Below, in pieces: positions 1-13,742 of a DNA stretch of 37,208 nt; the first letter of the stretch is position 1, and each line of letters opens with the position of its first letter. Below the pieces are notes generated by a model. The model was given only the letters and a program-made list of their open reading frames with translations. It searched no databases and had not been told where the DNA came from. The DNA is taken from positions 1-37,208 of the forward strand of contig CACIKV010000012.1 of NCBI GenBank assembly GCA_902587325.1. Reading direction: 5' to 3'. Both the position numbers and the translations under genes were made by a program. Origin of the DNA: an uncultured Bacteroidota bacterium. GTDB lineage: Bacteria; Bacteroidota; Bacteroidia; Flavobacteriales; Flavobacteriaceae.

Positions 1-597
1 TGCTAAATTCAAGCTATAAACTCCAGTCATTTGATTTTTTGGTTGACAGGGATTAACTAGGGGCCCGAGTATATTAAAAAATGTTTTAAAACCAAGGTTT
101 CTTCTGACTGGTGCTACATTTTTCATAGCAGGATGAAAAAGAGGTGCATGTAAAAATGTAATATTAGCCTCTTCAATACTTTTTCTTAAAATATTAATAT
201 CATTAGAAAATTTGATACCAAGGTGCTCTAAAACATTACTTGAGCCGCATCCAGATGAAACGCCATAATTTCCATGTTTAGTAACTTTATATCCTGCACC
301 TGCGACTACAAATGAAGAAATCGTAGAAATATTAAAAGTGTTTTTTCCATCTCCACCAGTTCCACACAAGTCTATAGTATCTAAATCATTAAAATCAACA
401 GTGATACTGAGATCAATTAAAGCATCTCTAAATCCTTCAATTTCCTCTACAGTTGGCATCCTCATTTTATAAACAGTAAGAAATGAAGAAATTTGTTCAT
501 CATTATACTTTTTTGCTGAAATTTCTTTCAATATTGAATTTGACTCATCGTAATTTAAAGTCTCATGATCAAACAGTTTTTCTAGTATCTTTTTCAT
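1..597 (-). CDS. trpD: Anthranilate phosphoribosyltransferase (C-terminal part cut off by the window edge)
   Basis: TrpD transfers a phosphoribosyl group from PRPP to anthranilate, the second dedicated step of tryptophan synthesis in the cytoplasm. The reading frame is open from the ATG at 597 to base 1 and gives 199 residues; the family is usually about 330-345, so roughly the last 40% is missing. The PRPP-binding GTGGDG motif is visible at about residues 79-84, followed by the N-T-F-N-I-S-T segment, KHGNYGVSS and a GxLxNP-like stretch (GPLVNP) typical of the family. The start ATG shares one base with the trpG stop (TAATG), which suggests translational coupling. It is the third gene of a trpE-trpG-trpD operon controlled by the attenuator near 2554-2667. 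Identification is very secure. Confidence 0.96.
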   Translation of the reverse strand, partial: MKKILEKLFDHETLNYDESNSILKEISAKKYNDEQISSFLTVYKMRMPTVEEIEGFRDALIDLSITVDFNDLDTIDLCGTGGDGKNTFNISTISSFVVAGAGYKVTKHGNYGVSSGCGSSNVLEHLGIKFSNDINILRKSIEEANITFLHAPLFHPAMKNVAPVRRNLGFKTFFNILGPLVNPCQPKNQMTGVYSLNLA

Positions 598-1160
598 TAT
601 GTATTAATCCAATTTTTTAACATTATTTTACCATGATCAGTAAGAATGGATTCTGGATGAAATTGTACTCCCCATAATTTATATTTTTTATGTTTAAAAG
701 CCATTATATTATTGTCAAAATCTTCTGCAAGTAATTCAAAATCATCAGTCAATTTTTTTACGACCCAAGAGTGATAACGTCCTACTTTCACAATTTCTGG
801 GACAGAGCTGAAAAGAATATCTTTAGTGCAAATTTTTATGTCAGTAGAAATTCCGTGAAAAACATCATTAAGGTTTAATAATTCACAGCCTAGTGCTTCA
901 GCAATAGCTTGATGACCTAAGCAAACACCTAAAAAATTTTTTGTTTTGTAATACTTTAAAATAATAGATTTTAAAAGTCCAGCTTCATCAGGAATACCTG
1001 GCCCAGGCGATAGTAATATTTTACTAAAACTATCAACAAATTTTAAATCAATTTTATCATTTCTAAAAACTTCAACTTTACAATTAAGATCCTCCAGATA
1101 GTGGACTAAATTATAAGTGAATGAATCATAATTATCAATAACTAAAATTTTATTTCTCAT
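597..1160 (-). CDS. trpG: Anthranilate synthase component II (glutamine amidotransferase)
   Basis: This 187-residue class I glutamine amidotransferase hydrolyses glutamine and passes ammonia to TrpE for conversion of chorismate to anthranilate. Visible signatures are the N-terminal DNYDSFTYNL, the oxyanion-region SPGPGIPDEAG at 51-61, the nucleophile elbow GVCLGHQ with Cys80, and the catalytic His168/Glu170 in QFHPES. The ATG overlaps the trpE stop by four bases (ATGA), so the two subunits are probably made in coupled fashion. PabA has the same fold and can be hard to separate by sequence, but the position between trpE and trpD makes the tryptophan role clear. Some organisms share one such subunit between the folate and Trp pathways; the window does not tell. 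Confidence 0.96.
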   Translation of the reverse strand: MRNKILVIDNYDSFTYNLVHYLEDLNCKVEVFRNDKIDLKFVDSFSKILLSPGPGIPDEAGLLKSIILKYYKTKNFLGVCLGHQAIAEALGCELLNLNDVFHGISTDIKICTKDILFSSVPEIVKVGRYHSWVVKKLTDDFELLAEDFDNNIMAFKHKKYKLWGVQFHPESILTDHGKIMLKNWINT

Positions 1161-2551
1161 TTTTCTTCTGCTTTTTCAATTGATTTTATCAATGCTCCAA
1201 CTTTATTATAAACCTCATTTAATTCATTTTCAGGTACAGATTTCGAAACAACACCAGCTCCAGCTTGAAAATATAAAGCTTGATTTTTTGACAAAAATGA
1301 CCTTATGATGATCGCGTGGTTAAAATTACCGTATATATCAATCATTCCAATTGCACCACCATAAAATTGTCTTTTTGATGTTTCATATTCATTTATTAAT
1401 TCCATTGCTTTATATTTGGGTGCTCCAGTTAAAGTTCCGGCTGGAAAAGTATTTCCAATAATTTCCTTAGATTTCGATTTTAAATAACCTGTAACTTTTG
1501 AAACTAAGTGGATAACATGTGAATAAAATTGAATTTCTCTGTCTTTTTCAACAACTACATTGTTGCAAGATCTACTCAGATCATTCCTTGCCAAATCTAC
1601 AAGCATCATATGCTCACTATTTTCTTTATCATCACTTAGTAATTCTTTAGCTTTTTCTTTATCGTACAAGTCATCACCAGTACGCTTAAATGTTCCAGCT
1701 ATCGGATGAATTTCAGCCTTTTTGTTATTAATTATAAGTTGAGCTTCAGGTGAGCTGCCAAAAATTTTAAAATTTCCATAATCAAAGTAAAATAGATATG
1801 GCGACGGATTTATAGATCTTAGCTTTCTATATACATTGAAATCATCTCCTTTGTAAGGCTGTGTAAATTTTCTAGATAATACTATTTGAAAGACATCACC
1901 CCTTAAACAATGGGATATTCCTTTTTTAACTAGTTCTAAGTAATCTTTATCAGATATATTTGATTTAATTTCACCTTGCTTTTTAAAACTGAAATTATAC
2001 GTAGATTTACCAGTTATTAATTTCTCGATTTTTAATAATTCATTTTTATCATCAGAAAAATTTATGATAGTTGATTGGTTATTAAAAGTATTTACAACTA
2101 TAATATTTTCATACAAACAGTATAGCATTTCCGGTATATTATCTCCAAAATTTTTATTTTCAAGTGTAATATTTTCAAAATAATTTATTGAATCATAACT
2201 CATGTAACCATATATTCCTTTCGATTGAAATTTATCTTTTTTCCAATTACTTGAAAATTCAAATGAATTCATGAATTCATTTAGTTTATTAAAAACTGAA
2301 TCACTATCCTTAATATTGTATACACTTCTTTCTTTATTTGGGTAATTTATTTCCAAATAATTATTTTCTAATTCAAATTTTGCAATAGGCTTAAAACATA
2401 TGTAAGCATAGCTATTATCTTTCGAGCTATAATCGCTACTTTCTAATAATATAGAATTAGCATAAATATCCCTTATTTTCAAATAAATACTTACTGGTGT
2501 TAAAGTATCTGTAATAATTTCTTTTCTATTTTCTTTTAATTTAAATTTCAT
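1157..2551 (-). CDS. trpE: Anthranilate synthase component I
   Basis: TrpE converts chorismate and ammonia (from TrpG) to anthranilate, the committed step to tryptophan. I start it at the ATG at 2551 (464 residues). An in-frame TTG at 2581 would extend it, but that lies inside the terminator hairpin and would add ten unconserved residues. The N-terminal Trp-binding feedback motif LLESSD is present at about residues 35-40, and the C-terminal chorismate-binding half shows SPEAQL, HPIAGTFKR, DLARNDLSR, FPAGTLTGAPK and FYGGAIGMID. The feedback motif indicates allosteric inhibition by Trp in addition to the transcription attenuator just upstream. The start codon lies two bases after the U-tract of that attenuator and has no Shine-Dalgarno sequence, as is normal in Bacteroidota. 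PabB is the alternative family member; context excludes it. Confidence 0.96.
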   Translation of the reverse strand: MKFKLKENRKEIITDTLTPVSIYLKIRDIYANSILLESSDYSSKDNSYAYICFKPIAKFELENNYLEINYPNKERSVYNIKDSDSVFNKLNEFMNSFEFSSNWKKDKFQSKGIYGYMSYDSINYFENITLENKNFGDNIPEMLYCLYENIIVVNTFNNQSTIINFSDDKNELLKIEKLITGKSTYNFSFKKQGEIKSNISDKDYLELVKKGISHCLRGDVFQIVLSRKFTQPYKGDDFNVYRKLRSINPSPYLFYFDYGNFKIFGSSPEAQLIINNKKAEIHPIAGTFKRTGDDLYDKEKAKELLSDDKENSEHMMLVDLARNDLSRSCNNVVVEKDREIQFYSHVIHLVSKVTGYLKSKSKEIIGNTFPAGTLTGAPKYKAMELINEYETSKRQFYGGAIGMIDIYGNFNHAIIIRSFLSKNQALYFQAGAGVVSKSVPENELNEVYNKVGALIKSIEKAEEK

Positions 2552-2553
2552 AT

Positions 2554-2586
2554 AAAAAAAAAAGGCCTGTCGCAAAGACAAGCCTT
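2554..2586 (-). terminator. trp attenuator: intrinsic terminator directly before trpE
   Basis: Read on the minus strand, AAGGCTTGTC (2586-2577) pairs with GACAGGCCTT (2571-2562) to form a 10-bp stem with one G-U pair and a 5-base loop. It is followed by ten consecutive U (2563-2554, overlapping the foot of the stem). This is a textbook Rho-independent terminator, placed between a Trp-codon leader peptide and the trpE start, two bases before the ATG. Lying upstream of the operon rather than downstream, it should act as an attenuator. It is read directly from the sequence; function is inferred. Confidence 0.9.
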
Positions 2587-2607
2587 AATTATATTCTAAT
2601 TATAAAC

Positions 2608-2667
2608 TTATAACGACAAGAGCCTGTTTATATATCTTTGCCACCAAAATTTATAATAATTTTTCAT
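2608..2667 (-). CDS. trpL: trp operon leader peptide with tandem Trp codons
   Basis: A 19-codon open reading frame, MKNYYKFWWQRYINRLLSL, starts at the ATG at 2667 and stops with TAA at 2608-2610, 21 bases before the attenuator stem. Residues 8 and 9 are consecutive Trp codons (TGG TGG, 2646-2641); six of 19 residues are aromatic. The peptide itself probably has no function after translation. Its role would be to sense charged tRNA-Trp: stalling at the Trp pair frees the antiterminator arm encoded by its last codons (Arg-Leu-Leu-Ser). A candidate promoter -7 box ends four bases upstream, so the transcript may begin almost at this ATG. It is too short for ordinary gene callers. Classical trpL peptides of enterobacteria also carry a Trp-Trp pair; I infer analogy, not proven homology. 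Confidence 0.85.
   Translation of the reverse strand: MKNYYKFWWQRYINRLLSL
2614..2625 (-). promoter_or_regulatory. Candidate antiterminator arm of the trp attenuator
   Basis: The 12-mer AGGCTCTTGTCG (minus strand, 2625-2614) is a near copy of the terminator 5' arm and can pair with the terminator 3' arm (CGACAGGCCT, 2572-2563), leaving a 2-base bulge. It lies in the last codons of the leader peptide. A ribosome stalled on the Trp codons (2646-2641) would leave it free; a ribosome reaching the stop codon (2610-2608) would cover it. That matches the logic expected for high readthrough when charged tRNA-Trp is scarce. Inference from base pairing only. Confidence 0.7.
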
Positions 2668-2671
2668 ATCC

Positions 2672-2679
2672 CAAATATA
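2672..2679 (-). promoter_or_regulatory. Candidate trp promoter -7 box (TATATTTG)
   Basis: TATATTTG on the minus strand matches the Bacteroidota -7 consensus TAnnTTTG exactly. It would place the transcription start at about 2668, one base before the leader-peptide ATG. I see no good TTTG -33 element at the usual spacing (a TTTG lies 25 bases upstream, which is too far), so the call rests on the -7 box and its position in front of the leader. Confidence 0.5.
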
Positions 2680-2748: not shown

Positions 2749-3066
2749 ATGAATTTAAATATTAATGATTGGAAAAAAAGGAAAGAATTAGATTCTAACA
2801 ATATATGTTTAGATGTTAGAACAACTGAAGAATTTAATCAAGGATATATACAAGGCTCTATAAATGTAGATTTTTATAATTCTATTGATTTTATGAAATT
2901 TTTAGAAAAGTCTGAAAAAGACAATAATTACTATGTTTACTGCAGGTCTGGCAAAAGAAGCCATACTGCTTGTGAAATCATGGCAGAAATGGGTTTCAAG
3001 AATGTATATAATTTAAAGGGGGGGTTTATAGATTGGGTTAAAAATGGAAACAAAATAAATGAATAA
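2749..3066 (+). CDS. Single-domain rhodanese-like protein
   Basis: This 105-residue protein is one rhodanese domain with no signal peptide. Visible features are LDVRTTEEFNQGYIQGSINV (residues 21-40, the usual N-terminal half signature), the active-site loop CRSGKR with Cys65 as the persulfide-carrying residue, and the closing L-K-G-G-F-I-D-W motif near residues 89-96. Such stand-alone domains carry sulfane sulfur between donors and acceptors; the actual partner cannot be deduced here. The gene is divergent from the trp operon and overlaps the following PspC-like gene by eight bases (ATGAATAA), so the two are probably co-translated. Its own promoter is not evident. No Shine-Dalgarno sequence precedes the ATG. 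Confidence 0.9.
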   Translation: MNLNINDWKKRKELDSNNICLDVRTTEEFNQGYIQGSINVDFYNSIDFMKFLEKSEKDNNYYVYCRSGKRSHTACEIMAEMGFKNVYNLKGGFIDWVKNGNKINE

Positions 3067-12403: not shown

Positions 12404-13591
12404 ATGGCTAAGGAAACTTTTGATCGGTCCAAACCCCATTTAAATATTGGTACAATTGGACACGTAGATCACGGTAAAACTACCCTTACAGCTGCTATTA
12501 CAACGGTACTAGCTAAAGAAGGTCTTTCTGAACTTAAAAGCTTTGATCAAATTGACAACGCACCTGAAGAAAAAGAAAGAGGTATTACAATCAACACATC
12601 CCACGTTGAATATCAAACTGCTAACAGACATTATGCGCATGTAGATTGTCCTGGTCACGCAGATTATGTAAAGAACATGGTAACTGGTGCTGCTCAAATG
12701 GACGGTGCTATTCTTGTTGTTGCAGCAACAGATGGACCAATGCCACAAACAAGAGAACATATACTTTTAGGAAGACAAGTTGGTATTCCAAGAATTGTTG
12801 TTTTCTTAAATAAGGCTGACCAAGTTGATGATGACGAGCTTCTTGAACTTGTGGAAATGGAAGTTAGAGATTTGCTTAATTTTTACGAATATGATGGAGA
12901 TAATGGACCTGTAATTTTAGGATCAGCTCTTGGTGCACTTAATGGAGAACAAAAATGGGTTGATACTGTTATGAAATTAATGGAGTCTGTTGATAATTGG
13001 ATTGAACTTCCGACAAGAGAAGTCGATAAAGATTTTTTGATGCCTATTGAAGATGTTTTTTCAATTACTGGTAGAGGAACTGTTGCAACAGGAAGAATTG
13101 AAACTGGTGTTGCCAACACTGGTGATACTGTAGATATAATTGGAATGGGAGCGGAAAAACTTGCCTCTACAGTAACTGGTGTCGAGATGTTTAGAAAAAT
13201 ATTGGACAGAGGTGAAGCCGGTGATAATGTTGGTATTCTCTTAAGAGGTATTGAAAAAACTGATATTAGCAGAGGAATGGTAATTTGTAAGCCTGGATCT
13301 GTTAAGCCTCATGCAAAGTTCAAAGCAGAAGTTTATATACTAAAAAAAGAAGAGGGAGGAAGACATACGCCTTTCCACAATAATTATAGACCTCAGTTTT
13401 ATGTAAGAACTACTGATGTAACTGGAAATATTGAGCTTCCTAGTGGAGTTGAAATGGTTATGCCAGGAGACAATCTTACTATTACTGTTGAATTAATTCA
13501 GCCTATTGCATGTAGTGTTGGTTTAAGATTTGCTATTCGTGAAGGTGGTAGAACAGTTGGAGCAGGTCAGGTAACTGAAATTTTAGATTAA
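12404..13591 (+). CDS. tuf: Elongation factor Tu
   Basis: The 395-residue GTPase that delivers aminoacyl-tRNA to the ribosome. The G motifs are clear: G1 GHVDHGKT at 19-26, G2 in E-R-G-I-T-I-N, G3 D-C-P-G-H, G4 N-K-A-D and G5 G-S-A-L. Domain 2 ([14 protein letters not shown]) and domain 3 (H-T-P-F, then [18 protein letters not shown]) are complete. G4 has Ala where many homologues have Cys or Val, within normal variation. It has its own promoter and a strong terminator, so it is probably expressed mainly as a single-gene unit, followed by tRNA-Trp and secE-nusG. Confidence 0.98.
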
Positions 13592-13656: not shown

Positions 13657-13729
13657 ACGGGTTTAGCTCAGTTGGTAGAGCACTGGTCTCCAAAACCAGG
13701 TGTCGGGAGTTCGAGTCTCTCAACCCGTG
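13657..13729 (+). tRNA. tRNA-Trp (anticodon CCA)
   Basis: The acceptor ACGGGTT pairs with AACCCGT with discriminator G, the D-arm is AGCTCAGTTGGTAGAGC, the anticodon stem CTGGT/ACCAG encloses CTCCAAA (anticodon CCA), and the T-arm contains GAGTTCGAGTC. CCA is not encoded. tRNA-Trp between tuf and secE is the common bacterial arrangement. This is also the tRNA whose charging level would be sensed by the trp leader peptide at 2608-2667. Confidence 0.96.
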
Positions 13730-13742
13730 CAACAGAAATATT

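Follow-up and report, generated by a model that had tools for sequence, protein, structure and literature searches.

A candidate trp attenuator of Flavobacteriaceae, with antitermination predicted to act on the terminator's loop and 3′ arm

The window analyzed here is a stretch of 37,208 nt (contig CACIKV010000012.1, assembly GCA_902587325.1) from an uncultured Flavobacteriaceae bacterium. All features of the candidate attenuator lie on its minus strand, in the order −7 box, leader ORF, terminator hairpin and trpE (Table 1). A first-pass annotation of this DNA had placed the whole element at 2554–2667 and described a 19-codon leader ORF with a Trp-Trp pair before trpE; the coordinates are correct, and the ORF can be read exactly on the minus strand. 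The 10-bp terminator stem with ten U that it reported is also present, ten T following GGCC (2563–2554), of which two lie inside the stem and eight are free. As it had stated, trpE follows within two bases, its ATG occupying 2551–2549 two bases past the U-tract. The leader stop codon is 56 nt from trpE. The locus has, in short, a small ORF with consecutive Trp codons upstream of an operon and, between this ORF and the first gene, an intrinsic terminator with a 10-bp stem and eight free U. A gene for a rhodanese-like protein (Pfam) on the plus strand, at 2749–3066, diverges from the trp side. The same window carries a tRNA-Trp gene (anticodon CCA, 13657–13730), with the EF-Tu gene (12404–13591) on one side and ORFs leading to the RNA polymerase beta gene on the other.

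Table 1. Features of the trp leader region and the downstream genes in the window.
Feature	Positions	Strand	Basis or remark
−7 promoter box TATATTTG (consensus TANNTTTG)	2672..2679	-	4 bp upstream of leader ATG
Leader peptide ORF MKNYYKFWWQRYINRLLSL + stop, 19 codons	2608..2667	-	ATG 2667–2665, stop 2610–2608
Two consecutive Trp codons TGGTGG (control codons)	2641..2646	-	read directly
Putative antiterminator segment 2 (AGGCUCUUGUCG)	2614..2625	-	complementary to loop end and arm 4
Linker strand AUAAGUUU	2604..2611	-	pairs with terminator arm 3 in predicted stalled-state fold
Terminator 5′ arm (arm 3) AAGGCTTGTC	2577..2586	-	terminator scan, stem covariation
Terminator loop TTTGC	2572..2576	-	terminator scan
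Terminator 3′ arm (arm 4) GACAGGCCTT	2562..2571	-	terminator scan, stem covariation
Free U-tract	2554..2561	-	read directly
trpE, anthranilate synthase component I	1157..2551	-	Pfam PF00425 E 5e-76, PF04715 E 1.1e-26
trpG, glutamine amidotransferase	597..1160	-	PF00117 E 9.1e-48; gene name from position
trpD start, cut by window edge	1..597	-	PF00591 E 4.9e-50, PF02885; gene name from position

None of 200 dinucleotide shuffles of the 151-nt leader folds as well as the native sequence (z −3.2). A terminator scan found one site per strand in 4 kb with 1.1 expected; since this count is about the chance expectation, the hairpin by itself is weak evidence, and we regard the comparison across relatives as decisive. 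The comparison set of regions upstream of trpE comprised 111 rows: the window, 80 TrpE relatives from public contigs (titles mostly naming Flavobacteriaceae genera, some only 'Bacteroidetes' or 'Cryomorphaceae') and 30 family loci from whole genomes, one of which is the window itself. A Trp-Trp leader followed by a U-tailed hairpin occurs in 102 of the 111 rows. When identical regions are merged, with the window's second copy included, a WW or WWW leader with such a hairpin is present in 93 of 102 different regions, and a chance ORF is ruled out by this conservation. WWW is commoner than WW (100 of 124 family rows, later sets added). The nine rows without a called element include four truncated by contig ends (L003, L036, L044, L090), two whose leader is visible by eye and failed the script rules (L034, L088) and one with a single Trp only (L087). 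The other two, L054 and L071, both from Salegentibacter, have no attenuator before trpE, through loss or a move of the operon; a third Salegentibacter locus, L046, has one.

The first-pass annotation had named loss of the Trp codons or of stem pairing in close relatives as an observation that would count against it, and stem covariation as a check. Neither loss is seen: the nearest relatives, L001 and L002 (82 and 84% TrpE identity), and likewise the same-genus L082, retain frame, Trp pair and stem, and the Trp codons are kept family-wide. In the terminator stem 99.8% of cells pair and five of nine pairs have changed on both sides, values that none of 500 shuffles reaches for either measure. 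The attenuation reading of the first-pass annotation is thereby supported as far as sequence can tell.

A covariance model of the element found it in 134 of 149 family genomes, some of them used for building the model, and gave matches in 44 of the 295 genomes sampled across the class, nine of the 44 being Flavobacteriaceae. Among the 14 loci inspected outside the family, L216, L217, L219, L221 and L222 may be chance terminators, with no Trp-pair leader at the match, and L223 is ambiguous. L212 (genome G500) has a WWW leader and terminator before an ORF resembling trpB by eye rather than before trpE, so that the element seems to go with the first gene of the operon.

In Flavobacterium johnsoniae and F. 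psychrophilum the −7 box spans −12 to −5 from the transcription start, according to passages of PMC6847099 and PMC9723704. With four bases between box and ATG in the window, transcription would be expected to start at the A of the leader ATG (about 2667), and, judging from the position of the box, the leader transcript should be leaderless. Among 155 distinct regions from Flavobacteriaceae and other Bacteroidia, a TANNTTYG box precedes a start codon in 132; in 45 of these 132 the gap to the first in-frame ATG, GTG or TTG is 4 or 5 nt, with about one expected from a box density of 0.0042 per nt. A gap of 14–19 nt, which would give a leader, is found in 40 of 104 box-bearing Flavobacteriaceae regions, so that leaderlessness appears common, not universal. 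For comparison, a part of PMC9723704 puts leaderless mRNAs in F. psychrophilum at only 5.5% of those examined.

As a score for possible antiterminators we took the best-scoring ungapped duplex that the terminator can form with leader sequence downstream of the last Trp codon. Over 101 Flavobacteriaceae rows, some of them identical, segment 2 scores on average 16.3 with the loop and arm 4, shuffled leaders giving 10.0 (sd 0.19), and 11.4 with arm 3 and the loop, where shuffled leaders give 11.1 (sd 0.21). In the 87 nonidentical rows the two means are 16.9 and 10.7. The typical pair of segment 2 and terminator is GUCGUGA with UCACGAC, and others are GUCGAUA/UAUCGAC, GUCGAAA/UUUCGAC, UCGCGA/UCGCGA and CCUGUCGC/GCGACAGG. 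For 11 of 12 terminator variants, the leader is a closer match to the terminator it belongs to than to those of the remaining variants (one variant, L084, had no anchor and was omitted from this cross test). Segment 2 starts 14–22 nt past the last Trp codon in 86 of the 87 nonidentical rows, and 17–19 nt past it in 64, whereas the leader stop codon begins anywhere from 6 to 30 nt past it. A near-constant spacing between Trp codons and segment 2 together with a variable stop is what stalling-controlled pairing requires. Pairing between segments 1 and 2 is above shuffles yet weak (11.6 vs 9.9). Neither this antiterminator nor the likely leaderless start formed part of the first-pass description.

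Covariation of segment 2 was assessed in an unedited MAFFT alignment of 58 of the 113 distinct Flavobacteriaceae regions, thinned by similarity. Pairing with the terminator is possible in 83.9% of cells, which none of 500 shuffles reached; slid controls gave 11–53%. Eleven cells changed on both sides, again reached by 0/500 shuffles. Of the five measures, two are unremarkable: the number of pairs with two-sided change (three of seven) was matched by 40/500 shuffles and that of further pair types by 164/500. Only 19 of 53 sequences form the outermost pair. The segment 2 count is conservative, because the rows of the window, L001, L032, L043 and L050 are shifted in segment 2.

To represent the states of the ribosome, we folded whatever part of the RNA stays uncovered when the ribosome sits at the Trp codons, when it sits at the stop codon, or when there is none, the front edge of the stalled ribosome being set by assumption 10 nt beyond the last Trp codon. 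With 6 nt of arm 4 exposed, the mean predicted terminator probability over 113 Flavobacteriaceae rows is 0.05 in the stalled state, 0.97 at the stop codon and 0.79 without a ribosome; with segment 2 shuffled, the stalled state reaches 0.78. When all of the 3′ arm is exposed, the terminator prevails at equilibrium in 107 of the 113 even with a stalled ribosome, so that antitermination in these 107 would have to be kinetic; 41 of 42 rows from other Bacteroidia as well as E. coli trpL behave like them. The six exceptions include the window, L001 and L002, whose full-arm stalled probabilities are 0.02, 0.01 and 0.00 and which reach 1.0 at the stop codon. The folds of the window and L002 additionally show the linker beyond segment 2 paired to the 5′ arm. 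Without a ribosome, the terminator of the window is not favoured (0.20, compared to a family mean of 0.99). When the ribosome edge was moved along the window leader, the terminator switched on between +15 and +24. Complementarity, near-constant spacing and folding thus point, in silico, to an antiterminator that excludes the terminator and is excluded by it.

The geometry differs elsewhere in the class: among other Bacteroidia families (42 rows), the 5′ arm and loop score 15.9 (11.85 shuffled) and the loop and 3′ arm 13.4 (11.8 shuffled), with the 5′ side preferred in 31 rows and the 3′ side in nine. In 23 further Flavobacteriaceae rows the 3′ side is preferred in 22 and the 5′ side in one, and the 5′-arm score stays at 11.65 against 11.75 for shuffled leaders. 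After thinning at 75% identity, 20 Flavobacteriaceae clusters give z 8.5 (3′ side) and 2.7 (5′ side), and 28 other clusters 3.9 and 10.1, respectively. The split is imperfect, as five of the 20 Flavobacteriaceae clusters favour the 5′ side and seven of the 28 others the 3′ side. By eye, L208, L210 and L212 look 3′-sided. In the positive control, trpL of E. coli K-12, the score recovers the established 5′-side pairing, with 15 on the 5′ side (z 2.0) and 12 for the loop and arm 4 (z −0.7).

This class comparison scored 65 of 84 regions. The 19 dropped comprise five leaders that are WWW by eye and failed the hairpin rule (L119, L130, L159, L161, L167), two with too little upstream sequence (L117, L129), three with single-Trp or Trp-Cys leaders (L121, L128, L180) and nine in which no leader was seen (L133, L136, L137, L170, L173, L176–L178, L193). 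Three of the last group, L176, L177 and L193, come from genomes of about 600 kb in one family of the order and have a hairpin upstream of trpE like the terminator of the Flavobacteriaceae (GGCTTGTC...GACGGCC), with no Trp leader ORF seen; in L176 the sequence ATG-ATG-TAA comes after a −7 box. The pattern suggests that the sensor has decayed while the hairpin was retained. In four loci from other Bacteroidia families (L120, L124, L127, L114), the leaders are of the Trp-X-Trp type (WRW, WCW), their Trp codons not being adjacent.

The genome of the window likely holds a second attenuator, L230 on its contig C6, where the His-rich leader peptide MRKLIHNHHSLFLILKRDM is followed by a terminator before hisG. 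Like the trp element, it has a leader peptide with control codons, a terminator and a segment 2 about 15 nt past the last His codon; unlike in the trp element, its segment 2 is the better match to the 5′ arm and loop (18.5 vs 11). No Thr attenuator was seen by eye before the aspartokinase-homoserine dehydrogenase gene of this genome, and no ILVD_EDD_N match was found in it (84.8% complete).

Of the readings considered, a trp attenuator based on ribosome stalling explains the locus best by a wide margin. More specifically, the trp operon (at least trpE, trpG and trpD) is probably controlled by ribosome-mediated transcription attenuation, with segment 2 capturing the loop and 3′ arm. Transcription would begin at the leader AUG or right beside it, and a ribosome would load on the leaderless 5′ end. 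When Trp-tRNA is scarce, the ribosome would stall on the Trp pair with its front edge some 9–15 nt downstream, as assumed from ribosome size. Segment 2 (2625–2614) would then be free to pair with the emerging loop and 3′ arm, and in this genome the linker after it would additionally pair with the 5′ arm. Nucleation of the terminator would be blocked and trpE transcribed. When Trp is plentiful, the ribosome would reach the stop codon (2610–2608) and cover segment 2, the hairpin would form, and transcription would end just before trpE. The analysis shows the ORF with its Trp codons, the terminator and its stem covariation, the complementarity of segment 2 to the loop and arm 4, its near-constant distance from the Trp codons and the in-silico switch; stalling, termination, antitermination, the leaderless start and the response to Trp are what we infer from the sequences.

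The closest competitor keeps the attenuator and assigns the antiterminator the classical II:III role, segment 2 pairing with the 5′ arm and the 3′-side match being a by-product of the near-palindromic stem. The window alone is ambiguous on this point, its best scores being 17.0 for the loop and arm 4 and 16.5 for arm 3 and the loop, and by eye its ACAGGC (2627–2622) can pair with GCUUGU in arm 3. The 5′-side preference in most rows from other Bacteroidia families and in the his attenuator of the same genome would also suit such an arrangement. However, the 16.5-point match in the window directly follows the Trp codons, where the stalled ribosome would sit, and ACAGGC is retained in neither L001 nor L002. 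Across the Flavobacteriaceae, the 5′-arm score is at shuffle level, so that sequestration of the 5′ arm is not what the family as a whole displays, and after thinning the 3′ side stands out far more than the 5′ side. We consider the classical arrangement improbable for this family.

Could the hairpin instead be a constitutive terminator, or a translational hairpin hiding the start of trpE, with the leader ORF only recruiting or re-initiating ribosomes? U-tract and trpE ATG nearly touch in the window, and a part of PMC4833913 proposes a re-initiation role of short leader ORFs for several phyla including Bacteroidetes. However, the same source gives a peak at 11–14 bp for Bacteroidetes, compared to the 56 nt between leader stop and trpE here, and we rejected a re-initiation antenna as the main role on this distance. 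Moreover, the Trp codons are conserved, and it is their spacing to segment 2, not to the stop, that is near-constant. The hairpin lies further upstream of trpE in many other genera, and since its distance varies in this way, start occlusion cannot be the function they share. Taken together, this renders such a role very unlikely. T-box elements, TRAP-like proteins and riboswitches control trp operons in Firmicutes, and a device of this kind could in principle sense Trp and act on the same terminator. The conserved part, however, is a Trp-rich ORF. In an Rfam search of the window only tRNAs reach a cut-off, the best weak match over the leader being Phe_leader at 23.2 bits with a cut-off of 55; with no Rfam family at cut-off in the leader we rejected the T-box, TRAP-type and riboswitch readings, which we regard as hardly credible.

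The II:III antitermination model is standard for E. coli trp, as a passage of PMC1183508 sets out. Like E. coli trpL, the stalling attenuator proposed here has a short Trp-Trp leader peptide, a terminator with U-tract and an alternative pairing controlled by stalling; in E. coli the best 5′-arm match starts 14 nt past the Trp codons, a distance similar to that of segment 2 here. In contrast to trpL, where segment II pairs with region III, the 5′ arm, segment 2 is predicted to pair with the loop and 3′ arm, and the leader ORF is predicted to be leaderless. The first-pass annotation had held that this lineage uses the same logic as enterobacteria, which is correct for the logic and not for the anatomy, the putative antiterminator pairing on the other side of the hairpin.

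Within the family, a section of PMC9723704 describes strong clues that amino-acid operons of F. psychrophilum are preceded by leader-peptide attenuators, and names pheA and hisG elements as family-conserved, without Rfam matches. The trp element shares family and proposed mechanism with these attenuators; section 19 of that paper contains neither trpE nor the antiterminator geometry. For Bacteroides thetaiotaomicron, a passage of PMC7366714 notes short ORFs reminiscent of attenuating leader peptides. The main text of PMC2965389, on premature terminators, has no occurrence of Bacteroid-, Flavobacter-, trpE or tryptophan. Thus the principle is known and the group was already suspected, whereas we met no description of the trp element, of a 3′-arm antiterminator or of their combination with a leaderless ORF in the literature searched, which took in few subscription papers and no supplements.

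We lean towards the view that the trp attenuator of Flavobacteriaceae has been re-geared, with an often leaderless control peptide and a kinetic capture of loop and 3′ arm, that the geometry was switched within Bacteroidia, and that both forms coexist in one genome (trp and his). By comparison, ribosome-stalling trp control would appear widespread in Bacteroidia and not an enterobacterial speciality, and the covariance model of the element is a product of this analysis. Bacteroidia mRNAs lack Shine-Dalgarno sequences, and a leaderless control ORF bears on early ribosome-polymerase coupling in Bacteroidota. The loop and 3′-arm geometry departs from the textbook II:III pairing and implies that antitermination may act by blocking hairpin nucleation.
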